Shown here: piece by piece, positions 7,865-34,320 of the stretch
How the letters are laid out: the number at the start of each line of letters is the position of its first letter
Position numbering within the stretch: position 1 is the stretch's first letter
Assembly (NCBI GenBank): GCA_015061865.1
Contig: SUVU01000011.1
Coordinates: 1 to 34,940, forward strand
Direction: 5' to 3'
Source of the DNA: Lentisphaerota bacterium
Lineage (GTDB): Bacteria; Verrucomicrobiota; Lentisphaeria; Victivallales; Victivallaceae
Length of the DNA stretch: 34,940 nucleotides
Notes under the pieces: generated by a model
What the model saw: the letters and a program-made list of their open reading frames with translations, nothing else
The model's database searches: none
Told to the model about the DNA's origin: nothing
Position numbers and translations under genes: made by a program

Positions 7865-10423
7865 ATGGAACCAAACACCGCAGTCAGCGGGTTGCTCTGT
7901 ATGAAAGTCCTGCTGGGACAGTGCCGGGGCAATACCAACTTAAATGCAGTGCTTTCCAAAGAAACGGTCGAGAAATATGTCAAAGATCCCGGTCAGACTC
8001 TTTTTGCTCTGGCGGAAAATTTTGACCTCGGTCCGGAAATGGTCGACCCCCGCGATGCGGAAGGTTGCCGGGAACGCACCGGAGCAGCTCTGCTCAAAAT
8101 GAAAAATAACAACTGGGTTCTCGTCCTCCGGACGGATCACTTCGCCCAGGAAGCTGTCGCCTGTCTGGACCCCTCGGTCAACAACGGCGGCAAACCGATC
8201 GCTTATAAAACCAAAGAACTGCTGGAGCGCACCGACGGCAATATCATCTATTTCGTCCGGCTGCGTGAAGTCGATTCCGAGGCGCAAAGCGGCGTTTTCT
8301 GTCTGACCACCATCGCCCGCCACCATCAGGTGCGGATGGATATGCGTCAGGTGATGCACGACTACGCCATCGGTGCCGATGAGCCGAATCTGCCGACATT
8401 GATCGACATCGCCCAATCCTACGGCTTCAAAACCGGCCGCAAAAAACTCAATTGGGAAAAAATGCTCAATATGGGGCAGGCGTTCCCTTTCATCGGGGTC
8501 AAGAAAAACAACAAATATCTCGTCGTCGCCGGAGTCAAACGGATGTCACAGGAAGAGCCGCCCACGCTGGCGGTCATCGACCCCGCCCATCCCGGCGATC
8601 ACGGTTCGCCGTTCTCATTCATGACCGAGGCGCAGTTCAATGAGACGATGAGCGACCAGTTTGTGCTGTTGAAACGTACTTACCGGCTTTCAGACGAGGC
8701 CCAGCCGTTCGGTCTGCGCTGGTTCATCCCCGAATTTCTGAAACTCAAAAATATTTTCATCCAGATCGCTCTGACCGTCTGTATGATCACGGCGCTGTCG
8801 CTGGTCGTGCCGCTGTTTTTCCAGATCGTCGTGGATAAAGTGCTGGTGAATCAGGCGTACAACACGCTGAACGTCATCGGTATCGGTATATTTTTCGCCA
8901 TTCTTTTCAACGGATTTTTAGAGTATGTGCGAAATTATTTCCTGCTCTTTGCCACCAACAAGATCGACATTGCCACGGCGATGAAAACTTTCCGCCACAT
9001 GATGCGGCTGCCGATCGACTTTTTTGAGAAGATCCCCGCCGGGGTGCTGCTCAAACACATGCAGCAGACCGAAAAGATCCGGGGCTTCCTTTCCGGCAAT
9101 CTGTTTTTCACGCTGCTGGATATTTTTGCCCTCTGCATCTTTATCCCGTTCCTGCTCTTTTACAGCGTGTCTCTGACATTGATCGTGCTGGGATTCAGCG
9201 CATTGATGGCACTGGTGATCGCTACATTGATCAAACCTTTCCAGACCCGCCTCAACGAATTGTATCAGGCCGAGGGTAAACGTCAGAGTATGCTCGTGGA
9301 GTCGATCCACGGTATCCGTACCGTCAAATCTCTGGCGCTGGAGCCGGTGGAGGAGAAACATTGGGACGATACCACCGCCTATGCGATCAAATCCTACTTC
9401 CGGGTCGGCAAAATTTCCATGACCGCCAAAAGCATCAGTCAGGTGTTGGAAATGCTGATGACCGTGGCGATCATCTGGGCGGGGGCGCTGATGGTCTTTG
9501 AGGGCAACCTCACCGTCGGTGCATTGATCGCATTCCAGATGCTTGCCGGCAGAGTCACCGGGCCGCTGGTGCGGATGGTCGGACTTATCCACGAATACCA
9601 GCAGATCGCCCTTTCGGTCAAAATGCTCGGTGTGGTCATGAATACCCCCGAAGAACCCGCCGGCGGCGGCATCCGCAACCGCTTCAAAGGCGAAGTTTCC
9701 TTTGAGGGCATCGGCTTCCAGTACCGTCCCGACCTGCCGCAGGTCATTAAAAACTTCTCGCTGAAAATCCCCGCCGGCAGCACCATCGGTATCGTCGGCC
9801 GTTCCGGTTCAGGTAAATCCACATTGACCAAACTGCTGCAGGGCATGTACAACGTCCAGCAGGGCGTGGTCAAAATCGACGGCGTGGACATTCGTGAGAT
9901 CGACAAATCCCACCTGCGTTCCAGTATCGGTGTGGTGCTGCAGGACAACTACTTTTTCAGCGGCTCCATCCGTGACAATATCTCCATGACCAAACGCAAT
10001 GCGGCGCTGGAGGAGATCATTTATGCGGCGAAACTCGCCGGCGCGGATGAATTCATCCAGAAAACCACCCGCGGTTACGATACCATGCTGGAGGAAAACG
10101 CCGTCAACCTCTCCGGCGGTCAGCGGCAGCGTCTGGCGATCGCCCGGGCATTGCTGACCAATCCGCCGATTTTGATCTTTGACGAAGCCACCAGTGCGCT
10201 TGACCCGGAAAGCGAACAGCTGATCCGTGACAACCTCAAAGCGATCGCCAAAGACCGTACCGTCATTATCGTGTCCCACCGCTTGAGCATCATCAGCGGC
10301 GCCGATCAGATCCTGACACTTGAAAACGGCGAAATGACTTCGCTGGGTACTCACAAAGAACTTCTGGCGCAGCCGGGCGTGTACCGGAACTTCTGGCGTC
10401 AGCAAATGGAAGTGGAGGATTGA
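7865..10423 (+). CDS. Type I secretion ABC exporter with two tandem degenerate C39-like domains
   Basis: 852 residues from the ATG at 7865, which has GGAG 11 bases upstream; an in-frame ATG at 7769 is rejected. Inner-membrane ATPase of a type I secretion system. Order: C39-like domain 1 (about 5-133), C39-like domain 2 (about 139-271), a six-helix exporter membrane domain (about 290-570), and a nucleotide-binding domain with Walker A GRSGSGKST (about 645), LSGGQRQR (about 748), Walker B ILIFDEATSALD (about 769) and SHR (about 804). The two N-terminal domains resemble one another: SGLLCM/SGVFCL, a QTLFALAENF/PTLIDIAQSY helix, MKNNNWVLV/VKKNNKYLV and LDPS/IDPAH. Both have Ser (8 and 142) where C39 peptidases have the nucleophile Cys and lack the catalytic His, so neither should cleave. 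They more likely bind substrate, as in HlyB. It is operonic with the HlyD adaptor 5 bases downstream. No substrate or TolC gene is in view. Confidence 0.93.
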   Translation: MEPNTAVSGLLCMKVLLGQCRGNTNLNAVLSKETVEKYVKDPGQTLFALAENFDLGPEMVDPRDAEGCRERTGAALLKMKNNNWVLVLRTDHFAQEAVACLDPSVNNGGKPIAYKTKELLERTDGNIIYFVRLREVDSEAQSGVFCLTTIARHHQVRMDMRQVMHDYAIGADEPNLPTLIDIAQSYGFKTGRKKLNWEKMLNMGQAFPFIGVKKNNKYLVVAGVKRMSQEEPPTLAVIDPAHPGDHGSPFSFMTEAQFNETMSDQFVLLKRTYRLSDEAQPFGLRWFIPEFLKLKNIFIQIALTVCMITALSLVVPLFFQIVVDKVLVNQAYNTLNVIGIGIFFAILFNGFLEYVRNYFLLFATNKIDIATAMKTFRHMMRLPIDFFEKIPAGVLLKHMQQTEKIRGFLSGNLFFTLLDIFALCIFIPFLLFYSVSLTLIVLGFSALMALVIATLIKPFQTRLNELYQAEGKRQSMLVESIHGIRTVKSLALEPVEEKHWDDTTAYAIKSYFRVGKISMTAKSISQVLEMLMTVAIIWAGALMVFEGNLTVGALIAFQMLAGRVTGPLVRMVGLIHEYQQIALSVKMLGVVMNTPEEPAGGGIRNRFKGEVSFEGIGFQYRPDLPQVIKNFSLKIPAGSTIGIVGRSGSGKSTLTKLLQGMYNVQQGVVKIDGVDIREIDKSHLRSSIGVVLQDNYFFSGSIRDNISMTKRNAALEEIIYAAKLAGADEFIQKTTRGYDTMLEENAVNLSGGQRQRLAIARALLTNPPILIFDEATSALDPESEQLIRDNLKAIAKDRTVIIVSHRLSIISGADQILTLENGEMTSLGTHKELLAQPGVYRNFWRQQMEVED

Positions 10424-10428
10424 GCAAT

Positions 10429-11787
10429 ATGAAAACTCCTGAACGCAAAATCACCGCAGAAGCAGTGGAATTTCTGCCGGATGCCATTGAGATCAAAAAC
10501 GAAAAACTGCCGTTGTGGGCGCGTTACAGCGTGATTTTTTCGCTGATATTTTTCCTCGGCGCGATCCTCTGGGCCTCGCTGGGCAAAGTTGACGTCGTGG
10601 TCAAAGCCAACGGCAAAATCACCTCTGACAAGCAGAATATCGTGATGAAACCGCGCGAATCGTCGATCGTTAAAAAGATCCACGTCCGGGTCGGTGACAT
10701 CGTGGAAAAAGATGATCTGCTCATCACCTTTGACCCGACCATCAACGGCGCCGAAGTCGATCGCATCAAGCAGGAGATCCGGGTGCTGGAAGCTAAATTC
10801 AACCGTTTCATGGCGGAAAACGGCGGCAAAATCTATCAGCCGGCGGAGTTGACACTTGAAACCGTTGAAGAGCTGAATATTTTCAAACAGCGCCGCAATT
10901 ACTTCGAATCCCGGATGAAGTATTTTGAAGAGGCGATCAAGCAGCTCGACGCTTCGCTGGTCACGAAAAAAGACAGCATCGCCACCATTGAGGAACAGCT
11001 CAAAACAGTGCGCAAAATGGAAAAAATGTACGAGGGACTTGCCAGCAAAAAAGCCGTGCCGGTCAAAGATTTGTGGAATGTTCAGGTGCAGCGTATCGAG
11101 CTGGAGGGCAACCGTGACACCTACAAAAACAATCTGGATGAACTTTCACACCAGAGACAGAGCATCATCTCCCAGAAAGACAGTTTCATCCACGAGTGGC
11201 ACAACTCCATTTCTGAAAACATGATCGCTACCGGCCGGGAACTTGACCGCAACCGCAAACAGCTGGCGCAGGCAAAAACCCAGTTGAGCTTTGTGGAACT
11301 GCGGGCGCCGAGCAAAGCGGTCGTCCATGAGATCGCACCTTTCCCCGAAGGTTCCGCCGTCGGTGAAGCCGAAGCGATCATCACCCTCGTCCCGCTGGAC
11401 GGCAATATGGAAGTCGAAGCCATGGTCGAACCGCGCAACCGCGGCAAAGTCACCGTCGGCGCCGAATCCCGGGTCAAACTTTCCGCTTATCCGTTCCAGA
11501 AATACGGCACTTTGAACGGCACCGTGCGGCAGATTTCCGAAGATACCGTCGTCAGCTCCACCGGAGCCGGTGTCGATCCGGAAACCGGCGCCCCGCGCAG
11601 CGGATCATTTTACCGTACCCGGGTCACGCTCGGCGGCACGGAAACGCTCCGCAATCTGCCGGATAATTTCCGGTTGATCCCCGGCATGGAAGTCGAGGTC
11701 GAGATCAAAACCGGCAGACGCCGGATCATCGAATACATCATCTATCCGCTGATCAAAGCGCTGGATGAAACTGCCCGCGAACCGTAA
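10429..11787 (+). CDS. HlyD-family periplasmic adaptor (membrane fusion protein) of type I secretion
   Basis: 452 residues from ATG 10429. GGAGG at 10414-10418 lies 10 bases upstream; a TTG at 10420 is in frame but only 1 base from that site, so it is rejected. The protein links the ABC exporter in the inner membrane to a TolC-type outer-membrane channel. A short cytoplasmic tail (1-29) precedes one membrane helix (about 31-51), then VVVKANGKI opens the beta-barrel/lipoyl part. A long alpha-helical hairpin runs about 105-285, followed by the second lipoyl half-motif (VELRAPSKAVVHEI) and the beta-barrel domain. The C-terminus ends shortly after a hydrophobic IIEYIIYPL segment. It follows the exporter stop codon by 5 bases, so the two form one operon. 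Confidence 0.93.
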   Translation: MKTPERKITAEAVEFLPDAIEIKNEKLPLWARYSVIFSLIFFLGAILWASLGKVDVVVKANGKITSDKQNIVMKPRESSIVKKIHVRVGDIVEKDDLLITFDPTINGAEVDRIKQEIRVLEAKFNRFMAENGGKIYQPAELTLETVEELNIFKQRRNYFESRMKYFEEAIKQLDASLVTKKDSIATIEEQLKTVRKMEKMYEGLASKKAVPVKDLWNVQVQRIELEGNRDTYKNNLDELSHQRQSIISQKDSFIHEWHNSISENMIATGRELDRNRKQLAQAKTQLSFVELRAPSKAVVHEIAPFPEGSAVGEAEAIITLVPLDGNMEVEAMVEPRNRGKVTVGAESRVKLSAYPFQKYGTLNGTVRQISEDTVVSSTGAGVDPETGAPRSGSFYRTRVTLGGTETLRNLPDNFRLIPGMEVEVEIKTGRRRIIEYIIYPLIKALDETAREP

Positions 11788-21365: not shown

Positions 21366-24300
21366 ATGAAAAAGTTATTTGCAGCATTGGCGGTGGTGAC
21401 CGCTTCACTGTTGACAGCGGCAGATTTGACTGTCGAAAACAAATTTACTGCCTTTGTTTTTGACCCGGATAATGGCTGTTCACTGCGGGAGATCCGCAAT
21501 AAAGAGACCGGCAAAAGCATTGTTTTCGCCGCTTCGGCCCCGTTGTGGCAGGCGGAACTGCTGACCGGGGAAAACACAGTTGCCATTGCAGCTCCGGCGG
21601 CGGTGAAAACCCGCTTGTCACGGGTTTCCGGCGGTCAACTGCTCACTGCCAACTGGAAACTGAAGGGCAAAAATCCGGTCACTGCAGAAATGAAATTCTT
21701 TCTCCCCGATTCCGGAGCGCTGGCAGAGGCGGATTTTGCCATCACCACTGCCGGCAGGAAGGCACCGTGGGTGGATAATGTCGTCTTCCCCGTCTGCGGC
21801 GGCATCAGATCTTTTCAGGACGATTACCTGATCGTCCCCTATTATTACGGTCAGCTCATCCGGAATCCCGGCAAGGGCCGCCAGCGCAGTTCGTATCTGC
21901 ACCATCCCGGTTCGTGGTCGATGCAGATGGTCGCATTTTTCGGCAGTGACACTGCCGTTGCCCCCACGGCGGCGGACGGCACTGAAATCACCGGTTATCT
22001 GCGGGGGACTGCCGCTGACGAAACCGGTTTCATTCTGGCGTGCGATGATGAAAAAAACTTCTACAAAGAGCTGCGGATCGACAAAAATCCTCAACTTCCC
22101 GGCACGTTTGACATCCGCACTTCCCACTATCCGGCACTGCCCGGCTGGCCGGCGGTCAAAGCGAAAATGAACGGCAGATTCAGCTATAAAATGCCTTATA
22201 AAGTGAAAATCGGCACTTTCTCCGGCGGCGTGGGAAAAGCCGCCGCCGTCTACCGCGATATCGTCAAAGATCACCATGCCCTGCGGCTGGGAAAACTTGA
22301 TGACCCTGCCAACCCCATTTCGTCCAAAATCAAAAACCTTGCCTACTGGGGCAAACATTACCACGGCGCCAACCGGGTACTGCCTGATACGCTCCGGATG
22401 TGGAAATTTTTCCGGGCTCCGACGGCGATCCACTGGCCGCGTTATACTTCGGTCAAATTTGACCACAACAATCTGGATTACCACCCGCTGCTGGCAGAGT
22501 TTGAGACCGGTGTGCGGACACTGCGCCAGCTCGGGATCGTGACCGCCCCCTACGTCTGCGCCTGCATGTGGGATCAGGATATTCCCAGTTACAAGCGCAA
22601 AAATATGGCTGCCGCCGCCACCCGTGACCGCCACGGTGCGCCTTACCTCTGGCCCATCGCCGAAGCCAACAATGCCTGGATGAATCCGGCTTCGCCGCTG
22701 TGGCGCAAAGAATACGCCGACCTGACCATCAAACTTCAGGGGCAGTGGCAGACCGACAGTCAGTACATGGACGTCCTCGCCTGCGGCGGCAAACTCTGTT
22801 ACGACCCGGTGCTTAAAACCATCGGCGGCGGCAATTACTGGGCCGCCGGCAACCGCAAAATGCTGCAGGATATCCGCAAACGGCAGAGTAAACTGGAAAA
22901 ACACCTCTCTCTGACCACCGAAGGATTTACCGAGGGCTACATCGACCTGATCGACGCATATTTGATCCTTGACATCACCCGTTATGCGTGGACGGGGGAC
23001 ATCGGCAAGGAATTTTTCCCGTTTTTCGCCTATGTTTACCACGATTACGCCATTGCTTACGGCAGTGACGTCCGCAGCACTATGCCTGCTGACATGATCC
23101 GCTGGCAGATGGGTTTGAGCTGGCAGGCGGGGATCCAGCCCTGCATGATGGGCAGTTACTTCCGTGAAAGCAGGGTGACTGACCGGTTCAACCGGGAAAT
23201 CATCCATGCCCGCCACCGTGCCGCCGCCAAGTTTCTCAACCGGGGCCGCGGTCTGGAAGTGGCGCAGGTGCCGGATCTGAAATTCGCCGGAAAATCCGCC
23301 ATCGCCGCCGCCGCATCTTCCCATCAGGTCGCTGAACCGGCGGAAAAATGTATTTCCCAATTCAGTTTGTGGAAAGGTCCTGCCGTGTTGACCAGTGCGT
23401 GGCAGGCATCAGATAACAGCATCGGAGTCACGATGGTCAATATTTCCGGTAAAGCACAGCAGCTCAAACTGCAGTTTGCTCCGGACAGACTCCCCGCCAA
23501 TGCCGGAAATATTTTGTGGCGCAGCTGGCCGCTGCCGGTGAAAAAACTGGGCAATATCAGCGATAATAAAGTGCTGGATCTGGCGTTCAACGCCGATCAG
23601 GCCATGGTCATTGAACTGCGGGATGATACGCCGCCTGAAATCACCCCGCTGCTGCCGGTATCCGCCAGTTTCGCCGTGCCGGACAAAGACGGCAACTTCC
23701 CGGCAGTGGTCAACGATACCGGCTCCATGCTCGGCGGCGAAGAGGTACTCGCTGAACAAAGTGGAAACGGCAAAGTCCGGATCATCTCCCCGCTGACATT
23801 CAAGCCGGTCACCTGCATCCGCCGGGATTGGGTCAATTACGGTGTCGGCGGCCCGCGGCATGAAAAATACCGTACTTTTTATCTGCTCAATCCGACCGGC
23901 TGGAATTTTTCCGGCAAAAATTATAAAGCGCAGGTGCGTGCGGTTCACGGCATTGTTTCGATGATTTTGAATGTGAAATCCGCCGGGACGCTGACTGCGC
24001 CGGACGGAACTGTCATTTATGCGGTCAGTAAAGGCAACATCCGCACCGGAAAGGGCAAACTGGAACTTGCGCCGGGCGAATACTTCGTTTTCGGCTATAT
24101 CCCGCCTGCCGGTACTGCCCCGGTCGCCGGAACATACAAAGCTCTTGCGGAACTTTCCCGGCAGGCGGCGGCAAACGGCACGGCACTGCTTGCCGGCGGC
24201 GATGAATTGCCCCGGGAACAGCGTTTGCAGGGCGAATACGCTCTGGAACTGGGCAATGCCGCCGCATTTGTCCTGACCGGAATGTTTATCGTCCCGCAAA

Positions 24301-25544
24301 TGGAGAGCGATCTGCTTGTGCCGGGCGTGCCGCAATTGGTCAAATTTGCCGGTGCGGTCAAAGGTTCGGTCTCACTGCTCAATACACACCGCCGTAAACA
24401 GCTGGATATCGCTGAACGTGACGGCGGCTTTTATCTAACGGTCAACACCAGAGAGTGTACCCCCCATCTGCTCCGGGTGCTTTACACCGAAACCCTGGGA
24501 TTCCGCGGCGAAAAAGTGACCCGGACGGCGTTGGAATATCTGGAAGCCGGCGAGGGACTGCGGGTCGATGTGATGCTCCGGGATGCGATCGTGCGGAAAT
24601 TTTCCGGTGTCAACGGCTTCACCCAGAATATCACGCTGACCAACTGCTCTGCCCAGGCGCAGAAAATCCGTATTTCAGCAGAACTGCCGGAGGGCGTGGA
24701 ACTGCTGCCGGTCAAAGAATTCACTTTGAAACCCAATGAACCGCAGGTCGTCAAACTTCAATTCAAAGCGGTACTGCCGCCGGTTGATAAAGTTTATCCC
24801 TGCCGGATCCTCACTCACTACTCCGACGTTGCCGATGCCGCCGTGCCGGTGGAATTCAAACTGCGCAATTATGTTGCAGATTTGAAACCGGTCGTCAATG
24901 GCGGCAAAGTTTCCGGCAGATCCAACCGGATGCGGGACGACGGCGGCATGGTCTGTTATGTCGGCAGTGACCGCAAAATTTCGTTCCGGATCATCGGCGT
25001 GAATACTCCGGTATTCAAAACCAAAACCTACGAATGGACGCTGTTTGACCGCAATATGCAGGAACTCAACCGGGGCAAAGGCAATTTTGATTCCGGTGAA
25101 AAACAGACCGTGACGATAAATGTTCCGGAACCGGGAGTTTACTTCGTGCGGCTCAAATCCAGTTTCTTCTTTGTCCAAATGCTCACCCCGCAAAGCTACG
25201 GCTTTATGGCTACGGAAAACGAACCTTTCCATGCCTCCGGCACCAACCGGAACGTCGATTGCTACTTCCATGTCAGCAACGGGGAGTCATTCTACTTCTG
25301 CGCCCAGGACGGCGGCAAAACCGAACCCGCACAAGTCATTATTACCGATCCGTCCGGCAAAGTCGTTTTTGAACGCAACGGCAACTTCTCCAAATCAGAG
25401 AAAATCAATATCCCCGTCGCTCCGCAATTCCGGGATAAAGTCTGGAAACTGTACGTCGCACCCGTCGATGACTTCGCATTCCATCTGGGCGGCAGCGCCG
25501 CCGAATATATCGCCACTGAACCGGAGTGTACTCTGAAAAAGTGA
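21366..25544 (+). CDS. Large secreted glycoside-hydrolase-like protein (DUF6259-like barrel)
   Basis: 1392 residues with a signal peptide (MKKLFAALAVVTASLLTAA, cleavage about 19). Residues 20-290 look like a beta-sandwich of the kind that precedes GH barrels (FVFDPDNGCSLREIRNKETGK). About 320-640 reads as a (beta/alpha)8 barrel: AIHWPRYTSVKFDHN, YVCACMWDQDIPSYK, WMNPASPLWRKEYADL, SQYMDVLACGG (about 465) and TTEGFTEGYIDL (about 517). Acidic residues at the ends of these strands (Asp in QYMDV, Glu in TTEGF) are candidates for catalysis. About 660-1392 is a chain of beta-rich, Ig-like segments, with a final GVYFVRLKSSFFFVQ-type domain. The barrel recalls DUF6259-type proteins, whose substrates are not known to me. 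It has its own promoter and no operon partner; the hairpin mosaic follows it. Function as a polysaccharide-active enzyme is inference. Confidence 0.72.
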   Translation: MKKLFAALAVVTASLLTAADLTVENKFTAFVFDPDNGCSLREIRNKETGKSIVFAASAPLWQAELLTGENTVAIAAPAAVKTRLSRVSGGQLLTANWKLKGKNPVTAEMKFFLPDSGALAEADFAITTAGRKAPWVDNVVFPVCGGIRSFQDDYLIVPYYYGQLIRNPGKGRQRSSYLHHPGSWSMQMVAFFGSDTAVAPTAADGTEITGYLRGTAADETGFILACDDEKNFYKELRIDKNPQLPGTFDIRTSHYPALPGWPAVKAKMNGRFSYKMPYKVKIGTFSGGVGKAAAVYRDIVKDHHALRLGKLDDPANPISSKIKNLAYWGKHYHGANRVLPDTLRMWKFFRAPTAIHWPRYTSVKFDHNNLDYHPLLAEFETGVRTLRQLGIVTAPYVCACMWDQDIPSYKRKNMAAAATRDRHGAPYLWPIAEANNAWMNPASPLWRKEYADLTIKLQGQWQTDSQYMDVLACGGKLCYDPVLKTIGGGNYWAAGNRKMLQDIRKRQSKLEKHLSLTTEGFTEGYIDLIDAYLILDITRYAWTGDIGKEFFPFFAYVYHDYAIAYGSDVRSTMPADMIRWQMGLSWQAGIQPCMMGSYFRESRVTDRFNREIIHARHRAAAKFLNRGRGLEVAQVPDLKFAGKSAIAAAASSHQVAEPAEKCISQFSLWKGPAVLTSAWQASDNSIGVTMVNISGKAQQLKLQFAPDRLPANAGNILWRSWPLPVKKLGNISDNKVLDLAFNADQAMVIELRDDTPPEITPLLPVSASFAVPDKDGNFPAVVNDTGSMLGGEEVLAEQSGNGKVRIISPLTFKPVTCIRRDWVNYGVGGPRHEKYRTFYLLNPTGWNFSGKNYKAQVRAVHGIVSMILNVKSAGTLTAPDGTVIYAVSKGNIRTGKGKLELAPGEYFVFGYIPPAGTAPVAGTYKALAELSRQAAANGTALLAGGDELPREQRLQGEYALELGNAAAFVLTGMFIVPQMESDLLVPGVPQLVKFAGAVKGSVSLLNTHRRKQLDIAERDGGFYLTVNTRECTPHLLRVLYTETLGFRGEKVTRTALEYLEAGEGLRVDVMLRDAIVRKFSGVNGFTQNITLTNCSAQAQKIRISAELPEGVELLPVKEFTLKPNEPQVVKLQFKAVLPPVDKVYPCRILTHYSDVADAAVPVEFKLRNYVADLKPVVNGGKVSGRSNRMRDDGGMVCYVGSDRKISFRIIGVNTPVFKTKTYEWTLFDRNMQELNRGKGNFDSGEKQTVTINVPEPGVYFVRLKSSFFFVQMLTPQSYGFMATENEPFHASGTNRNVDCYFHVSNGESFYFCAQDGGKTEPAQVIITDPSGKVVFERNGNFSKSEKINIPVAPQFRDKVWKLYVAPVDDFAFHLGGSAAEYIATEPECTLKK

Positions 25545-25556
25545 TCCGCTGTTGCT

Positions 25557-25824
25557 CCACCATTTTTGCCGAAAGGCAAAAATGGTGAACGAAGCCGCAA
25601 GGCTTCTCTTCACGCCTTTTGCGTCTTGCCGCATCAGCGGCAATCGCAAAAGCTCTTCACTCAAAAACGAAGTTTTTCTTCACATCTTCACCGATTCCAG
25701 GAAGCCTTGCTTGTGAAGTCGTTTCATTACGCTGTCGCTTCATTGCACTTGTGAAGCCGCTCCGCTTGTGAAGTTGCCGCCTTTCGGCGGGAGGATGTGT
25801 TACCTTACAGCGCGGCTTTGCCGC
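25557..25824. repeat. Mosaic of small perfect hairpins and CTTCAC/GTGAAG repeats
   Basis: The first half of the 488-base non-coding gap 25545-26032. Hairpins in order: 25558-25587 (13-bp stem, GAAA loop); 25591-25606 (GAAGCC/GGCTTC, GCAA loop); 25616-25652 (8-bp outer stem CTTTTGCG/CGCAAAAG and 7-bp inner stem TTGCCGC/GCGGCAA, ATCA loop); 25663-25677 (AAAAAC/GTTTTT, GAA loop); 25777-25790 (CCGCC/GGCGG); 25812-25824 (GCGGC/GCCGC). CTTCAC occurs at 25608, 25655, 25678 and 25686. Its complement GTGAAG, each time inside CTTGTGAAG, begins at 25713, 25751 and 25768. No coding frame, transposase or regular spacer is seen. It resembles REP/mosaic intergenic elements. Confidence 0.7.
25558..25587 (+). 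repeat. Perfect 13-bp hairpin with GNRA loop, shared with the tRNA-Val flank
   Basis: CACCATTTTTGCC (25558-25570), GAAA, GGCAAAAATGGTG (25575-25587). It begins 13 bases after the stop codon of the large secreted protein and could end its transcript, though no U-tract follows the stem. The left arm, with one more C at 25557, recurs exactly at 34915-34928. Confidence 0.75.
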
Positions 25825-25965
25825 TTAATTTCTTTTATCTCAAAACTCATTGCGGCAGAGCATTCATCAAGCGGCATTTTTAGCCCAAAATCATCTGATA
25901 TTTTGATTCAACCTGAAATTTCCATAATCCACGCCTGTTTAACGCAAAAAATTTTCCTTTCGCAG

Positions 25966-25994
25966 TTGTAAACGCCTGAGGGAGATGGTATATT
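25966..25994 (+). promoter_or_regulatory. Promoter of the lipoprotein phosphatase operon
   Basis: TTGTAA (25966-25971), 17-base spacer, TATATT (25989-25994). Predicted start near 26001, about 32 bases before the ATG at 26033. Confidence 0.65.
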
Positions 25995-26032
25995 GCCTGT
26001 GAGATGGTTGATTTGAGGTTGGAGGAATGAAT

Positions 26033-26947
26033 ATGAAAAAAATCCAGATTTGCAGTATTCTGTGCAGTTTGATGATCGTTTTCCTCGTTGGGTGCGGTGG
26101 AATTCCTGAATATAATTATATTGGCATGACCAAAGCTGAAGTTGCGGCACATCTGGAAAAACATGCCTTCCGCAGCCGCTGGAGCAGAAACCGGTTTGAC
26201 ATTGCAGTGCCGCGAAGCAAAAATTTTTCTCATTCTTTCCGTAATGCTCAGGAAGTAGCGAAAAATCAATCCGTAATGTCTGCGGATCAATGGAATTGTG
26301 ATTTCTTTCCGCAAAGACATTGGCTTCTGGGATGGGACGGAATTTTTTCTCGCTGGCACAGTTATACCTTGGATTTCAAGAATGGCCGAGTTGCCAGGCA
26401 GCAGAAAAATACCGGATTGCCGTATTGGGTCAGAGGAAATGCCGGACAATCACCCTATCCGAATTATCCGAAAAACTTTCATAAGGTCAATGAAAATCTT
26501 TACCGTTCCGGTCAGCCGGATAAAGATGAATTCTTTTCTCTCTATACATTTAACGGCATTCGCAGCGTGCTGAATTTACGGGAAAACAACAGCGACAAAG
26601 ACGAAATCAATGCAATCAACCGCAATTGGAACAATGCCGTTACTCTGTACGAAATTCCCCTTGATACCGGAAAAATTACCGAAGGTGATCTCTATAAAAT
26701 TTTGACCGTCATCCGGGATGCTCCCAAGCCGCTTCTGATCCACTGCTGGCACGGCAGCGACCGCACCGGATGTGCCGTTGCCGCAAGCCGTATCATCTTT
26801 GAAAATTGGAGCGTGGAAGATGCTGTTTCCGAGTTGATGAAGCCTGAATACGGACATCACAAATACATCTATACCAACATTCCGGAGCTTCTCCGCAAAT
26901 CCGATTGGAAGAAAATCAGGGCAGCCATTTTAAGGAAGGAAAAATAA
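26033..26947 (+). CDS. Lipid-anchored dual-specificity/tyrosine-phosphatase-like protein
   Basis: 304 residues from ATG 26033, which sits 7 bases after GGAGG; an ATG two codons earlier (26027) is only 1 base from that site. A lipoprotein signal ends in FLVGC (lipid Cys21). Residues 26-120 contain YIGMTKAEVAAHLEKH and a later YTLDFKNGRVARQQ strand. These resemble the GMTxxEV and FxxGxV elements of SmpA/BamE lipoproteins. The C-terminal half (about 148-290) is a phosphatase domain: NLYRSGQPDKDEF, GIRSVLNLRE and the P-loop HCWHGSDRTG with Cys238 and Arg244; Asp211 (PLDTGK) may be the general acid. It should act in the periplasm or at the outer membrane. The gene is visibly more A/T-rich than its neighbours and is followed after 2 bases by a secreted protein gene, which suggests an acquired operon. 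Substrate is unknown. Confidence 0.82.
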   Translation: MKKIQICSILCSLMIVFLVGCGGIPEYNYIGMTKAEVAAHLEKHAFRSRWSRNRFDIAVPRSKNFSHSFRNAQEVAKNQSVMSADQWNCDFFPQRHWLLGWDGIFSRWHSYTLDFKNGRVARQQKNTGLPYWVRGNAGQSPYPNYPKNFHKVNENLYRSGQPDKDEFFSLYTFNGIRSVLNLRENNSDKDEINAINRNWNNAVTLYEIPLDTGKITEGDLYKILTVIRDAPKPLLIHCWHGSDRTGCAVAASRIIFENWSVEDAVSELMKPEYGHHKYIYTNIPELLRKSDWKKIRAAILRKEK

Positions 26948-26949
26948 TC

Positions 26950-27477
26950 ATGTGGAAAAAGTTTGTATTACTGACGGCATTGACACTTTTTTCCTTCAAT
27001 TTATTTGCCCATGGCAACGAATGGATCGCTGCCGCAGTTTTATTTAAAGATGCCAAATGGACTCCGGTACAAATTTCTTTTTGGCCGGTACATCTTTGTT
27101 CGCCAAGAACTGATGTATACGGACTTGCTATTTCACCTGGATTTATCGGATTTGCCAACAAGGTATGTGGAATAAGCAGCGGAATAATTTTTCTGCAAAA
27201 TGAAAATTTCGGGGTAACAGCCAGTATTTATTCTGTCGGAGTAAAAAATAATGTTTTATCGTTAGGGCTTGTTAATTCATGGGAAAGCAATAATGGGATA
27301 TCTTTAGGAGCTGTAAATTGTATTTATAACAATTCCGGCAGAAATATGCTGCAAATCGGCATTTTTAATTATGCAAAAAACGGTTTGCAAATCGGTTTGC
27401 TGAATTATAATCCCAACGCATTCATCACGTGGATGCCACTGTTTAATTTTTCTTTTTCAGACAAGGCTGATAAATAA
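26950..27477 (+). CDS. Secreted protein with short glycine-asparagine repeats, LA_2272-like surface family
   Basis: 175 residues from ATG 26950; AAGGAAGGA ends 9 bases upstream, and an in-frame ATG at 26905 lies inside the previous gene and is rejected. A signal peptide is clear (MWKKFVLLTALTLFSFNLFA). The second half contains four short repeats of the form [LI]-G-[LAI]-[VFL]-N: LGLVN, LGAVN, IGIFN and IGLLN, the last followed by YNPNAFITWMPLFNFSF. This resembles small beta-repeat proteins annotated as LA_2272 surface repeat-containing, whose function is not known. It follows the phosphatase by 2 bases and shares its A/T-rich composition, so the two are co-expressed and possibly functionally linked at the envelope. 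Confidence 0.75.
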   Translation: MWKKFVLLTALTLFSFNLFAHGNEWIAAAVLFKDAKWTPVQISFWPVHLCSPRTDVYGLAISPGFIGFANKVCGISSGIIFLQNENFGVTASIYSVGVKNNVLSLGLVNSWESNNGISLGAVNCIYNNSGRNMLQIGIFNYAKNGLQIGLLNYNPNAFITWMPLFNFSFSDKADK

Positions 27478-27663
27478 ATGTCTGCGGTGCGACTGTTTTT
27501 CGGGGCGGTTTTTATTCCAACAGACATTTCGTTTGAGGTGAAAGTCATTCTCTGTTTTGATTTTTATGCGTTAAGAGATGTTTTCCGGAGAAACGGCATA
27601 GTTCAGCAAATTTGCATTGTCAACAACCATTTTGAGTTTGAGAGAACTATTTCGGAGAATTAA
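27478..27663 (+). CDS. Possible small ORF at the end of the phosphatase operon
   Basis: 61 codons. The ATG directly follows the previous stop codon, and the stop lies 12 bases before a strong terminator, so its placement fits the operon exactly. Against it, there is no clear ribosome binding site, no family resemblance, and 27477-27484 and 27521-27528 (AATGTCTG/CAGACATT) form an inverted repeat across its start. It may be only the 3' untranslated region. Confidence 0.22.
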   Translation: MSAVRLFFGAVFIPTDISFEVKVILCFDFYALRDVFRRNGIVQQICIVNNHFEFERTISEN

Positions 27664-27675
27664 AACACGCTCCAC

Positions 27676-27711
27676 CGGGACTGTCGCTCTCATGACAGTC
27701 CCGTTTTTTTT
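27676..27711 (+). terminator. Strong intrinsic terminator of the phosphatase operon
   Basis: CGGGACTGTC (27676-27685), 8-base loop, GACAGTCCCG (27694-27703), then eight T (27704-27711): a perfect 10-bp stem with U-tract. It is the only textbook terminator in the window. Confidence 0.93.
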
Positions 27712-27783
27712 ATGTCCGGCAGAGATGCGGATGCGGGATTTTGCTCCGGGGGTAACATTTTCAGTAATTGATGCGGTAACGGC

Positions 27784-27812
27784 TTGACTAAACGCTGCGG
27801 ATGATGTATATT
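27784..27812 (+). promoter_or_regulatory. Promoter of carB
   Basis: TTGACT (27784-27789), 17-base spacer, TATATT (27807-27812). Predicted start near 27819, leaving a leader of about 167 bases. Confidence 0.65.
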
Positions 27813-27818
27813 ACATTC

Positions 27819-27985
27819 CGGTCTCTTGCGGAGGATTTTTCCGGATAAAGTGTTGTTTTCTGCGGAAAACGCAGTGACCGTGCGGAATACTGCGGCAGGG
27901 CAAACCGCCGTACCGCAGGCTGAAACAGAGAATTTTGATTATTTTTTATATTTTACTAACCATATTTTGAGAAAAGAGGCTTCTT
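27819..27985 (+). other. Structured 5' leader of carB
   Basis: Two mutually exclusive hairpins can form: GTTTTC-TGCG-GAAAAC (27855-27870) or CTGCG-GAAAA-CGCAG (27860-27874). A second stem, CTGCGG (27890-27895) with CCGCAG (27913-27918), can also compete with the CTGCG/CGCAG partners. A U-rich stretch (27933-27955) follows, but not directly after a stem, so it is not a clean attenuator. No PyrR-box, leader peptide or known riboswitch is recognised. Confidence 0.35.
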
Positions 27986-30900
27986 ATGGCACAGGGAACA
28001 GAGATCAAAAAAGTTCTCATCATCGGTTCGGGCCCGATCATCATCGGTCAGGCTTGTGAATTTGACTATTCCGGTACGCAGGCTTGCAAAGCCCTCCGGG
28101 AACGCGGTTATGAAGTGGTATTGACCAACTCCAACCCCGCAACCATCATGACCGACCCCGGCATGGCGGATCATACTTATATCGAACCGCTGACCGTCAA
28201 CAGTCTGGAAAATATCATCGCCAAAGAGCGCCCCGATGCCCTGCTCCCCAACCTCGGCGGTCAGACCGCCCTCAACCTCGCCATCGAACTGCACGATGCC
28301 GGTATTCTGGAAAAATACGGCGTGAAAGTCATCGGCGTTGACCTCGAAGCCATCAAACGCGGCGAAGACCGGATCGAATTCAAAAACACCATGAACCGTC
28401 TCGGTATCCCGATGGCAAAATCCGAACCGAGCTACTCCGTCGAAGAAGCCGAAAAGATCGCTTCTGAACTCGGCTACCCCGTCGTCCTCCGCCCCGCTTA
28501 CACCATGGGCGGTACCGGCGGCGGTATCGTTTACAACGTCGAGGAGTTGCGTGAAGTCGTCTCCAGAGGTCTGGCCGCCAGTCTGATCGGACAGGTGCTG
28601 GTCGAGGAGTGCGTCCTCGGCTGGGAAGAGCTGGAACTGGAGGTCGTCCGGGATGCCAAAGGTCAGAAAATCACCGTCTGCTACATCGAAAACGTTGACC
28701 CCATCGGCGTCCATACCGGCGACAGTTTCTGCGTCGCCCCGATGATGACCATTGCCAAAGATGTGCAGGCTCAGCTGCAGGATTACAGCTACCGGATCAT
28801 TGATGCCATCGGCGTTACCGGCGGCTGCAACGTCCAGTTCGCCCGCAACCGCGCGGACGGCAGGATCATCGTGATCGAGATCAACCCCCGTACCAGCCGT
28901 TCCAGTGCGCTGGCTTCCAAAGCCACCGGCTTCCCGATTGCCCGGGTCTCCACGGTGCTTGCCACCGGTGTCACCCTGGACGAAATGCCCTACTGGCGTG
29001 ACGGCAGTCTGGACAAATACACTCCGGACGGCGATTACATCGTCGCCAAATTCGCCCGCTGGGCGTTTGAGAAGTTCCCGCAGGCCAAAGATGCCCTCGG
29101 CACCCAGATGAAAGCCGTCGGCGAAGTCATGAGCATCGGTAAAAACTTCAAAGAGGCTTTCCAGAAAGCGATCCGTTCGCTGGAAATCGGCAAATCCGGC
29201 CCCGGTCTGGACAAAAAGATCGAAGCGCTGACTCTGGATGAGCTGCGTCCGCTGTCGGCGGCTCCGTCCAGCAAACGTTTCTTCTACCTCTACGAAGCAT
29301 TCAAAAAAGGTCTGACCGTCGAAGAAGCGTTCAAAATGACCAGCATCGCCAAATTTTTCCTCGCAGAAATTCAGGAATTGGCACTCTTTGAGCTGGAACT
29401 CGCCCGCTATACCTGGATGGGATTGCCCGATGAGATGCTGAAAAAAGCCAAAGAACTGGCGTTCTCGGACAAATATCTCGCCAAATTTTTCAATATTTCC
29501 GAAAAACAGGTGCGCACCCGCCGCATGGAACTCGGCTGTATCGCCAAATTCTGCCGCGTACCGGTTTCCGGTGTCGCCAATGGTGAAGATTACTACTACT
29601 CCACTTACAGCGATGCCAAAGATGAGGTCCCCGTTTCCGATAAACGCAAAATCATGGTTCTCGGCGGCGGCCCCAACCGTATCGGTCAGGGTATCGAGTT
29701 CGACTACACCTGCGTCCATGCCGCATTCGCACTGCGTGATGCCGGTTATGAATCCGTGCTGGTCAACTGCAACCCCGAAACCGTTTCCACCGACTACGAT
29801 ACCAGCGATAAACTCTACTTTGAGCCGCTGACCACCGAAGATGTGCTCGCCATCTACGAAAAAGAGAAACCCGAAGGCGTCATCGTCCAGTTCGGCGGTC
29901 AGACTCCGCTTAATATCGCCCAGGAACTCAAAGATGCCGGCGTGACCATCGTCGGTACCCAGCCCGAAGGCATCCGTCTGGCTGAAGACCGTGAGTACTT
30001 CCGTGAACGGATGCTCGCACTGCAGGTCAACCAGCCGGAAAGCGGCATCGCCCGTTCGCTGGAGGAGGCCGTCAATCTCGGCAGAAAAATCGGCTACCCC
30101 GTCATGGTGCGCCCCTCATTCGTGCTGGGCGGCCGCGGTATGGCAGTGCTTTACGATGAAGCCATGCTGAAACGCTACGCCGTCGAAGCCATTCAGGTCA
30201 GCCCGGAATACCCGATGCTGATCGACCGTTTCCTCGATCATGCGGTCGAGTGCGAAGTCGATGCGATCTGCGACGGTGAAGAAGTTTACATCCCGGCGGT
30301 CATGGAACACGTCGAATTGGCGGGTATTCACTCCGGCGACTCCGCCTGCAGCATCCCGCCGGTGACGCTGGCGAAAAAACATCTGGACACCATCGCTGAA
30401 AAAGCCGCCGCCATTGCCCGTGACTTCCGGGTGGTCGGTATTCTCAACGTCCAGTTCGCCGTCTGCGAGGACAAAGTCTGGATCATCGAAGCCAACCCGC
30501 GCGCTTCCCGTACCGTGCCGATCGTTTCCAAAGTCACCGGTGCGCCGATCGCCCGGATCGCCACCAATTTGATGCTTGGCTCCAAACTCTCGGAATTCAA
30601 ATCCCTGCTCCGCAATCCGCCGACCAAATACTTCGGCGTGAAAGAGGCGGTCTTCCCCTTCAACATGTTCCCGGAAGTTGACCCCGTCCTCGGCCCGGAA
30701 ATGCGTGCCACCGGCGAAGTTATGGGACTTGCCCCGACATTCGGTATGGCTTATTACAAAGCCCAGCAGGCCGCCGGCAGCGAATTGCCGCTGAAAGGCA
30801 AAGTCCTCGTCACCGTCCGTGAGCGTGACCGTGCCGAAATGCTGCCGATCGTCAAAGGTCTGGCGGAGATGGGTTTCGAACTCATCGCCACCGAAGGTAC

Positions 30901-31221: not shown

Positions 31222-32619
31222 GTGTTGGCCACGCTGATAATCTTGCTGGTACTGCTGACCGTTGCGGCCGTCGCAGCGGTATCGTTCTACCGCAAGACGC
31301 TGGAATTGCGCATGGATCTTACCGGCGCAATGATGGGGCGTGCCGAAATTTCAAACTTCCTCTCCCGCTTTGCTTCCGGGATCAACTGTGAAGACGGTCT
31401 GGATGGCGCTATGCACTCCACCGCCTGTTACATCCGGGAGCAGATCAATGCCGCCAGCGTGGCGATTTACGGTGTTTCAGGTGAAAATCTGACTCCGCTC
31501 GGCGTCAGCGGCGATTTCCCGCTGCTTGATGCCCATGCCGCCCCTGTCGGCACCCGGCAGGTGTTGGAGGAGCTGCGCCGCCACCCGTTGAAAGTCGGCA
31601 GCGGCTTCCTCGGCAAAGTCGTGGAATCCAAACACAGCGAAGTCGTCCCGCTGGCAAGTGTGGACAGCCGTTTTGAGCATTTGGAGGACAGCGACGAGTG
31701 GGGCAGTGTCATGGCGACACCGATGATCAAAGACGGTGTGGTTTTCGGCGTGATTTGTGCCGTCGGCAATCAGATGCTGGCGGGATCACCGTTTTCCGAT
31801 ACTCAATACAACCGGTTCCGTTCTCTGGCGCCGCAGGTGCTGATGGTGCATCAGCTGGTGCAGGTTTACGGCGAAATCAACCGCCGGGAACGGATCGATC
31901 AGGAGCTGGCGTTTGTCCGGCAGTTCCAGAATTCACTGCTGCCCCCGGCGGCGGTGACATTGGGAGATTTTTCCGTCTGCGCCCGCACTACCAGTGCCAA
32001 AGAGGTCAACGGCGACTTTTTTGATATGGTGCAGATCGACGAAAACCGGATGCTGGTCATGGTCGGTGATGCCTGCGGTAAAGGTATGCCGGCGTGTATT
32101 CTGGCATCCATGACCCGCAGTTTCGCCCGGGCGCTGGCATCAGATTTTACCACATTGACCAAGTTTCTCCGTGATGTCAACCACAACCTCAACCGGGATT
32201 CCGATGATGACCGCTTTATCACCATGGGCTGCTGTCTGATCGACAAACGCGGCGGGCTGGTCGAATTCGGCAGAGCCGGTCATACTGATATGATCATGCA
32301 CGTCCACGGCCATTTGCGCCGGCTGGCGCCGCGCGGGACGGCATTGGGGATGCTGCCGGACGAGGATGCGGAGTTTGATACCATCTGTCTGGCAGTCGAT
32401 CACGGTTCCAGTTTGATGCTGTTTTCCGACGGTTTGAGCGAAGCGCTCAACCACGACCGGGAGGAGTTCGGCTCTGACCGGCTGGTAAATGCGTTCCATG
32501 TTGCCTGCGAACACCGGGATACCCCGTCCGGAGTTATCGACGAAGTCATGGCGGCGGTGCATGAATTTGAGTATGAACAAAACGACGACCAGACGATCGT
32601 GATGATCCGGCGTGACTGA
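31222..32619 (+). CDS. Membrane-anchored GAF-SpoIIE (PP2C-type) serine/threonine phosphatase
   Basis: 465 residues from a GTG with a strong ribosome binding site (GGAGGGAG, 8 bases upstream). One membrane helix (about 2-21) is followed by a GAF-type sensor domain (about 45-200) with SVAIYGVSGENLTPLG, VGSGFLGKVVESK and ATPMIKDGVVFGVICAVG. A coiled linker (about 205-240) then leads to the SpoIIE/RsbU phosphatase domain (245-465). Its metal-binding aspartates appear in EVNGDFFDM (about 261), VGDACGKGMPA (about 280), LFSDGLSEA and NDDQTIVMI. Such proteins usually dephosphorylate anti-sigma-factor antagonists in partner-switching cascades. No STAS-domain or anti-sigma gene is in the window, so the partner is unknown. 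It is 15 bases from the ABC exporter gene, suggesting co-transcription. Confidence 0.9.
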   Translation: MLATLIILLVLLTVAAVAAVSFYRKTLELRMDLTGAMMGRAEISNFLSRFASGINCEDGLDGAMHSTACYIREQINAASVAIYGVSGENLTPLGVSGDFPLLDAHAAPVGTRQVLEELRRHPLKVGSGFLGKVVESKHSEVVPLASVDSRFEHLEDSDEWGSVMATPMIKDGVVFGVICAVGNQMLAGSPFSDTQYNRFRSLAPQVLMVHQLVQVYGEINRRERIDQELAFVRQFQNSLLPPAAVTLGDFSVCARTTSAKEVNGDFFDMVQIDENRMLVMVGDACGKGMPACILASMTRSFARALASDFTTLTKFLRDVNHNLNRDSDDDRFITMGCCLIDKRGGLVEFGRAGHTDMIMHVHGHLRRLAPRGTALGMLPDEDAEFDTICLAVDHGSSLMLFSDGLSEALNHDREEFGSDRLVNAFHVACEHRDTPSGVIDEVMAAVHEFEYEQNDDQTIVMIRRD

Positions 32620-32634
32620 AATACTGGAACTTAA

Positions 32635-34320
32635 ATGAAATACCGCAAAAACTCCGGCATGCGCATCGTGACCCCGACTTTGAAAGAGCAGTGGGGTTTT
32701 TTCAAATTTGCGCTGGCTCCATTCAAATACAAATTTGCGCTGGTGATGCTGATGCTGATATTGGTGCTGGCAGCCAGTTGTGCCAGTCCGGTAGTGCAGA
32801 AATATCTGGTCGATGCGTTTGGCAGCAAAAACCGCCACGGGGTGATTTTTTTCGGTGTGATTGCCGCAGCGGCGCTGGTGATTTGGCGCGGCGGTGAAGC
32901 GTTGTGGAGCCTGATGGCATCCATGCTGAAAATAAATTGCGAAGCACACTTGAAACGGAAATTTTTCCGCCACTTGCTCCGGCTGCCGCTGGGGGTGGTG
33001 GAGGCCGGCGGTTCCGGTTATCTCGGTCAACGGCTGCATTGGGATATTGAACTGGTCACGCTGTTTTTCTGTCATGGAATTTTCGGTTTGGCACTGAATT
33101 TTCTGAAATTATGCAGTGCGGTGGTGCTGTTGAGTATTTGCGCCCCGGACATGATGCTGGCAAGCGGGCCGGTGCTGCTGCTGTTTTTTGTATTGACGTG
33201 GGTTTTCCGCCGCCGCCAGTACGAATTGAGTTCCCGGATCAATGAAGCCGCTGCCGAATACCGGCGCAATATGCAGAATTCACTTGACCGGCTGACGCTG
33301 TTCAAAAGCCGTTCCGGCGAACGGCTGGTCGATCGCCGGGTCGGGCGCAATCTGGATAAAGTGACGATTTTGCGGATGTCCAGAGTCCGCTGGGAGCGTT
33401 TTTATACCATATTGCTCCAATTGCTCCCGGCGCTGTGGTGCGGGGCGGTGTGGTATTACGGCGCCTGCCGGGTGCTGGACGGCAGCTGGACATTGGGAAA
33501 TCTGTGGGCGGTCAGCGGTTATATGCTGCTGATCTTTACCCCCGGCAAAGCGTTTTTTACCGGATTGCTGACCAAACGCAATTCGGATGCGGCATTGCAC
33601 AGATTGCTGGAATTGCAGCGGATGCTGCCGGAGAAACATCCCAATACTCCGGAAAGCCGTATCAAAGCCGCTTCCGGGGCGGTGACATTTGACGGGATCT
33701 CATTTGCGTACCCGGGCGGCAGGGAGGTTTTCAAAGATTATTCGCTGACGATCGCCGATGGCGAACATCTGGGCATTTACGGTCCGTCCGGCGGCGGCAA
33801 AAGCACTCTGGGGGCATTGCTGCTGCGGTTGTATGATGTTTCATCCGGAGAGATCCGGCTGGACGGCAGAAATGTGAAAGATTATTCGCTGAAAGCGCTG
33901 CGCCAGTCGATCGGTTACATCAGCCAGTCGGCAGAGTTGTTCTACGGCACCGTCCGGGAAAACCTCGCACACGGCGGCGGTTATCAGGATGCGAAAATAA
34001 TTGCGGCATTGCGCCGTTCCGGTATGGGGGGACGGCTGGACGAAAATCCTGATCTGCTGGAGTTGAAAATCCGTGAAGACGGCAGTAACTTCTCCGCCGG
34101 TGAGAGATTGAAACTGGCGTTGGCGCGGGAATTGCTCCGTGATACCAGAGTGCTGGTGTTGGACGAAACGACAGCCGCATTGGATCACGACAGCGAAAAA
34201 GCTGTGTTTGAGTTGCTGCGCTGCGAATGGCGCGACCGGACGGTGATATTTATTTCCCACCGTGATTTCACCCCCGGTGTGATGGACAGGATCGTAAAAA
34301 TCACCCCGCCGCAGTATTGA
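32635..34320 (+). CDS. ABC transporter, fused membrane and ATPase domains (exporter type)
   Basis: 561 residues. Half-transporter that works as a dimer. A membrane domain with about six helices (about 35-320) precedes the nucleotide-binding domain: Walker A GPSGGGKST (about 383), Q-loop GYISQSAE, a divergent signature FSAGERLKLAL (instead of LSGGQ), Walker B VLVLDETTAALD (about 505) and switch His in ISHRD (about 541). The signature keeps Ser and Gly but has Ala and Glu for the usual Gly and Gln. The N-terminus begins with a basic cytoplasmic stretch, and Met9 is an alternative start. The cargo is unknown; lipid-, drug- and peptide-exporter relatives share this layout. It follows the SpoIIE-type gene by 15 bases. 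The ribosome binding site is weak (GGAA). Confidence 0.9.
   Translation: MKYRKNSGMRIVTPTLKEQWGFFKFALAPFKYKFALVMLMLILVLAASCASPVVQKYLVDAFGSKNRHGVIFFGVIAAAALVIWRGGEALWSLMASMLKINCEAHLKRKFFRHLLRLPLGVVEAGGSGYLGQRLHWDIELVTLFFCHGIFGLALNFLKLCSAVVLLSICAPDMMLASGPVLLLFFVLTWVFRRRQYELSSRINEAAAEYRRNMQNSLDRLTLFKSRSGERLVDRRVGRNLDKVTILRMSRVRWERFYTILLQLLPALWCGAVWYYGACRVLDGSWTLGNLWAVSGYMLLIFTPGKAFFTGLLTKRNSDAALHRLLELQRMLPEKHPNTPESRIKAASGAVTFDGISFAYPGGREVFKDYSLTIADGEHLGIYGPSGGGKSTLGALLLRLYDVSSGEIRLDGRNVKDYSLKALRQSIGYISQSAELFYGTVRENLAHGGGYQDAKIIAALRRSGMGGRLDENPDLLELKIREDGSNFSAGERLKLALARELLRDTRVLVLDETTAALDHDSEKAVFELLRCEWRDRTVIFISHRDFTPGVMDRIVKITPPQY

Follow-up and report, generated by a model that had tools for sequence, protein, structure and literature searches.

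The nearest described counterpart of the exporter reported here is HlyB, the hemolysin exporter of E. coli, likewise an ABC exporter with an HlyD partner, whose C39-like domain has been solved (PDB 3ZUA, 7SGR and 8DCK) and serves as a chaperone-like tether for unfolded cargo (review PMC8277102). PCAT1, ComA and LahT carry domains of the same papain-like C39 fold, which use a Cys-His-Asp triad to cleave double-glycine leaders. In the literature that we searched, exporters have one C39 or C39-like domain per chain, and no tandem or double C39 arrangement was found there, most subscription papers having been out of reach. The recognition of giant cargo by type I exporters is only partly understood, as is the reason why some of them carry a dead peptidase domain.

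The window (the whole stretch of 34 940 nucleotides that was analysed) belongs to a genome of 2.35 Mb in 165 contigs that is 76% complete, and the close relatives of this genome are metagenome-assembled genomes of Lentisphaeria. The window encodes an exporter that departs from the usual HlyB-type arrangement of a single N-terminal C39-like domain by having two such domains in series, hereafter D1 and D2 (Table 1). A GGAG motif lies 5' of the exporter start codon (ATG 7865), and the start of the adjoining HlyD gene is preceded by GGAGGA at 10414–10419. Two abhydrolase genes and a citrate synthase gene lie upstream of the exporter on the opposite strand; on the 3' side the exporter/HlyD pair is followed by a HisE-like frame and then hisG. 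Elsewhere in the window, the G+C content falls to 0.40–0.49 within 25500–28000, around a tyrosine-phosphatase-like frame (26027–26947), and a GAF + SpoIIE phosphatase gene (31222–34320) adjoins a second ABC exporter that has no C39 domain.

Table 1. Position of the exporter, its domains and its adaptor in the window
Feature	Position	Strand	Size or residues	Evidence
Type I secretion ABC exporter, HlyB-like, two N-terminal C39-like domains	7865..10423	+	852 aa	
C39-like domain 1 (D1; predicted fold)	7865..8263	+	residues 1–133	AF2 fold, Foldseek, hhalign to D2
C39-like domain 2 (D2)	8276..8686	+	residues 138–274	Pfam Peptidase_C39 4.5e-10, profile match 3zua
Exporter transmembrane domain	8771..9568	+	residues 303–568	Pfam ABC_membrane 1.3e-49
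Exporter nucleotide-binding domain	9749..10195	+	residues 629–777	Pfam ABC_tran 1.7e-33
HlyD-type periplasmic adaptor (start ATG 10429)	10429..11787	+	452 aa	TIGR01843

The best-scoring family for the exporter is TIGR01846 (type_I_sec_HlyB), at 636.8 bits, which is below the cut-off of 725.55; single-domain relatives from loci L059 and L060 score above it (923.5, 808.8 and 776.4). Both the membrane domain and the nucleotide-binding domain are present, and so are intact ATPase motifs (Walker A at residue 645, LSGGQ at 749, Walker B at 769 and the H-loop at 802). The adaptor exceeds the cut-off of its own family, TIGR01843 type_I_hlyD (286.7 bits against 208.65), and the exporter gene adjoins the HlyD gene in all 42 loci compared (42/42). 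Matches to OEP/TolC elsewhere in the genome indicate that a TolC-like channel is available. Together, the exporter and HlyD would be the part of a type I system that drives export at the inner membrane, with the TolC-like outer channel encoded elsewhere.

An earlier note on this DNA had described two consecutive segments with the same order of motifs at the N-terminus of the exporter, and the repeat is indeed there: SGLLC starts at Ser8 and SGVFC at Ser142, KNN is found at 80 and 214, and the DP turn at 102–103 and 239–240. Pfam Peptidase_C39 matches residues 138–226 of this protein, i.e. only D2, and gives no match to its D1, whereas 21 of the 44 D1 domains from the family match the same model unaided (best 1.5e-5). 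Profiles were built from relatives gathered from whole genomes, one for residues 1–137 (44 sequences) and the other for residues 138–276 (37 sequences), and aligned to each other by hhalign with E 2.4e-15. After single-domain proteins were taken out of the D2 set (33 sequences left), the alignment covered 124 columns with a probability of 97.8 and E 8.3e-13, whereas the controls, namely three unrelated alignments, D2 in reverse and five column-shuffled versions of D2 (0.1–0.4 for the shuffled ones), gave E 0.06–0.5, so that the similarity between D1 and D2 is not due to chance. When run over whole genomes, the D1 profile picked up not only D1 but also the D2 of these frames, with E-values as low as 2e-11.

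The D2 profile matches the C39-like domain of HlyB (3zua) with E 1.4e-14 and, at the sequence level, D2 is clearly related to that domain. When PDB chains were searched in the same way with the D1 profile, no C39 structure was matched, and folds therefore had to be compared. The AlphaFold2 model of D1 (pLDDT 89.6, pTM 0.85) was compared with the PDB by Foldseek, and C39 exporter domains accounted for 16 of the top 17 matches (TM 0.45–0.72). These belong to PCAT1, LahT, ComA and a Vibrio exporter; the first-ranked match was a papain-like protease toxin. A model of both domains together (residues 1–276) had a pLDDT of 92.8, and its structural matches include HlyB 3ZUA. D1 is thus predicted with high confidence to have the C39 fold, as the earlier note had supposed, rather than some other fold or family, and the suggestion of tandem inactive C39-like domains on a type I exporter is supported by profiles, predicted fold and conservation alike. 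The idea that D1 is a recent copy of D2 found no support, as single-domain CLDs (39 and 35 bits) match the D1 profile no worse than most D2 domains do.

Two further features of these domains were observed among the relatives. In one clade (L057, L070, L071, L072 and L075) D2 has an acidic, Pro-rich insertion of 50–90 residues before the DP turn. Two short frames in one genome (G035:C10:17882-18004 and G035:C119:24785-24907) match D1 residues 5–45 with the same E-value and possibly represent an assembly overlap at contig ends.

Serine had been proposed to replace the catalytic cysteine in both domains, and this agrees with the family as a whole. The nucleophile column, occupied by Ser8 and Ser142 in the exporter of the window, has 26 Ser and 14 Thr in the 44 D1 homologues and 18 Ser and 14 Thr in the 33 D2 homologues, with Cys in none of either set. 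A different Cys, four residues past this column, is kept in 43 of the 44 D1 domains. The proposed loss of the His and retention of the Asp hold as well: the His column has Asn83 in D1 and Lys217 in D2 (with the alignment uncertain by one residue) and is mostly non-His across the family, His being kept in 5 of the 44 D1 homologues, and the Asp column corresponds to Asp102 and Asp239 and is conserved in 40/44 D1 and 31/33 D2 domains. Of the Cys-His-Asp triad of active C39 peptidases, only the Asp therefore remains in either domain. With the catalytic Cys gone and the His mostly gone, D1 and D2 appear to be docking domains and, by their residues, neither is a double-glycine peptidase. HlyB shares with this exporter the dead nucleophile position, the large cargo and the profile match to D2, but its single C39-like domain has Tyr9 and retains His83, in contrast to the two domains with Ser/Thr and no His described here. 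PCAT1, ComA and LahT, whose domains rank high in the structural comparison with D1, differ in being active on double-glycine leaders, whereas the exporter described here has two such domains, both without Cys and His.

Exporters of about this length with two such domains were to be sought in related genomes, and they proved to be common. Matches to the exporter were found in 91 of the 149 related genomes, of which about 88 have the two-domain form, mostly in one copy each; the 88 include one genome (G052) in which D1 is broken by stop codons. The two-domain form is also present in three relatives from the same class (G260, G405 and G320) and in one from another class (G239). In a tree of the shared part, all two-domain exporters cluster together (branch support 100/100), and this cluster includes the single-domain exporter of G139, a sister of the two-domain exporter of G405 (99/93). 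The G139 exporter (L058) is a 760-aa frame that is 64% identical over D2 and the membrane and ATPase domains and lacks D1. No D1 was found upstream of it, where the DNA encodes an unrelated gene. The simplest history suggested by these sequences would be a single gain of D1 in the ancestor of the exporter clade and a single loss in G139, whose lineage has probably lost D1 secondarily.

Beyond the phylum, distribution was surveyed in plasmid records alone: 123 records match, mostly alphaproteobacterial, all of them with less than 80% of the two-domain query covered, and in the ten matches listed the similarity is confined to D2. Exporters with an extra N-terminal module before the C39 domain do exist in the same phylum, in other families of the class (L151:4148-7249 and L152:1126-3801, both on the minus strand), but there the module is cyclic-nucleotide-binding-like, the C39 Cys is kept and the proteins fall on a separate branch of the tree. 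Long C39 exporters of other families had been considered as possible double-C39 proteins, and the two that were inspected have cNMP-binding-like domains instead. An apparent 830-aa fusion to the exporter of G007 (L061) was likewise discarded; its 1719-residue frame is an antisense open-frame artefact and the true start is MENTTMP.

Giant proteins encoded next to the exporter are candidates for its cargo. Those with C-terminal WVGxGD repeats, called PPC by Pfam in one case, are found within 0.6 kb of the exporter at eight loci (L045, L144, L055, L066, L080, L145, L146 and L150). At L055 the giant gene ends 19 bp before the exporter on the same strand, and at L066 there are two such genes in a row, the nearer one 83 bp away. 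All three WVGxGD matches in the 3.7 Mb of G078 lie within the single gene that adjoins the exporter. Giants with an RTX module are found ∼ 3.1 kb upstream of the exporter at L051 and L079, and this module is common to large proteins of the nearest relatives (G010 and G017). The candidate cargo frames reach 5031 residues. Inspected by eye, several giants appear to lack a signal peptide at the N-terminus; neither a Gly-Gly leader at the N-termini of exporter-adjacent giants nor a Gly-Gly-leader substrate beside the exporters was noticed. One RTX-module protein of 2850 residues (L154:1078-9627) has an HExxH metalloprotease-like motif near its N-terminus.

Searches of the genome to which the window belongs found neither WVGxGD nor RTX cargo. 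This negative result is weak evidence, because contig ends often lack giant repetitive genes, as in G017. Two local candidates were rejected: PPC matches on contig C54, in a protein that has a Sec-like signal sequence and unrelated gene neighbours, and the large DUF6259 protein of the window (21366–25544), which has a signal-like N-terminus.

Co-occurrence was assessed in 70 high-quality genomes. Of the 43 with a two-domain exporter, 28 encode WVGxGD proteins, and none of the 27 without it does (p 6e-9), i.e. all 28 WVGxGD-bearing genomes carry the exporter. This association is a lead and not proof, since the WVGxGD profile was drawn from neighbours of the exporter, which makes the co-occurrence partly circular, and kinship was ignored, so that ancestry confounds it. 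In the same genomes, RTX-module proteins are found in 17/43 with and 10/27 without the two-domain exporter (p 1). In G139, which has D2 only, the RTX module is matched at least 14 times and WVGxGD not at all; this contrast on loss of D1 comes from one genome. Many exporter genomes have both kinds of cargo, and the split between RTX and WVGxGD is not clean, as RTX giants also occur near two-domain exporters and in genomes that encode them. Neither type was found in 21 of the 88 exporter-bearing genomes.

From these observations we infer that the giants are probably cargo, that D1 may bind them and that labour may be divided between RTX and WVGxGD proteins. D2, which adjoins the membrane domain, would be the counterpart of the single HlyB domain and grip unfolded RTX cargo. 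D1, added once in the ancestor of the clade and presumably kept by selection in nearly all descendants, would be a further receptor and holdase that takes hold of cargo by its C-terminal signal region before threading, in particular of non-RTX cargo ending in WVGxGD (PPC-like) repeats. Giant, repeat-rich extracellular proteins without signal peptides would thus be exported in one step. A role of D1 as an added non-RTX receptor is favoured because WVGxGD proteins track the two-domain exporter and RTX proteins do not, and because G139 keeps RTX. We give a probability of about 55% to the reading in which two dead C39-like domains are present, D1 is an extra cargo receptor favoured for WVGxGD cargo and the giants are exported. 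A stricter version, in which D1 reads a non-RTX C-terminal signal of the WVGxGD/PPC-like kind, one exporter serves two cargo families and loss of D1 leaves RTX export only, is tentative and on the doubtful side.

Rather doubtful, too, though the chief alternative, is the possibility that D1 and D2 simply hold the same huge unfolded cargo at two sites or in relay, with no division between cargo classes, which would raise avidity and prevent slippage or aggregation. The size of the candidate frames (up to 5031 residues), the tether and holdase role of the HlyB domain (PMC8277102) and the presence of both cargo kinds in many exporter-bearing genomes all agree with such a double grip. Yet a single domain would suffice in G139 for the export of frames of up to 3710 residues, and WVGxGD cargo tracks D1 whereas RTX cargo does not; on balance, the genomes speak rather for two kinds of cargo. 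D1 might instead make no contact with cargo and cap or space the assembly or couple an accessory protein, and some members of the family do encode a small conserved protein immediately upstream of the exporter. The sequence of D1 has also drifted, leaving few invariant columns. We consider such a structural or regulatory role improbable, as the small protein occurs in exporter-less genomes too and in D1 both the complete C39 fold and the DP turn (Asp in 40/44) have been kept, which fits a docking function. That either domain is an active peptidase trimming a leader with a Ser nucleophile seems very remote: the nucleophile column does have Ser or Thr, and five D1 homologues combine Ser with His, four of them also with Asp, but the His column has Asn83 and Lys217 here and is mostly non-His in the family, no homologue has the Cys, and the modules of the adjacent giants are C-terminal, with no Gly-Gly leader noticed at their N-termini.

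On the preferred reading, the WVGxGD (PPC-like) repeats would likely be a second class of type I secretion signal, which points to an extensive set of secreted proteins in Lentisphaeria that is independent of RTX repeats, and the doubled docking domain in these gut-type Lentisphaeria would possibly let one pump serve two cargo classes. The doubled domain, fixed across the lineage, together with G139, where D1 was probably lost and RTX kept, offers a ready comparison of the contribution of each domain.

The small conserved protein mentioned above is about 80–105 aa long, has a DG...MTPQGFL..F..M motif and no Pfam match, and is encoded in 115 of the 149 relatives (e.g. L080:7528-7818, L072:8073-8354 and L049:6669-6926, among others) as well as in the window's own genome (G000:C19:19343-19579). 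It was considered as cargo or a dedicated chaperone and rejected, because it occurs widely and independently of the exporter. A paralogue with SPNF at its end is encoded immediately upstream of the exporter in some ten relatives. A cassette that lies upstream of the exporter at L044 and L047 and recurs near it at L050, L051 and L079 encodes a signal-peptidase-like protein and proteins of about 86 aa and about 295 aa; at L044 and L047 a second ABC exporter is also found at this cassette.
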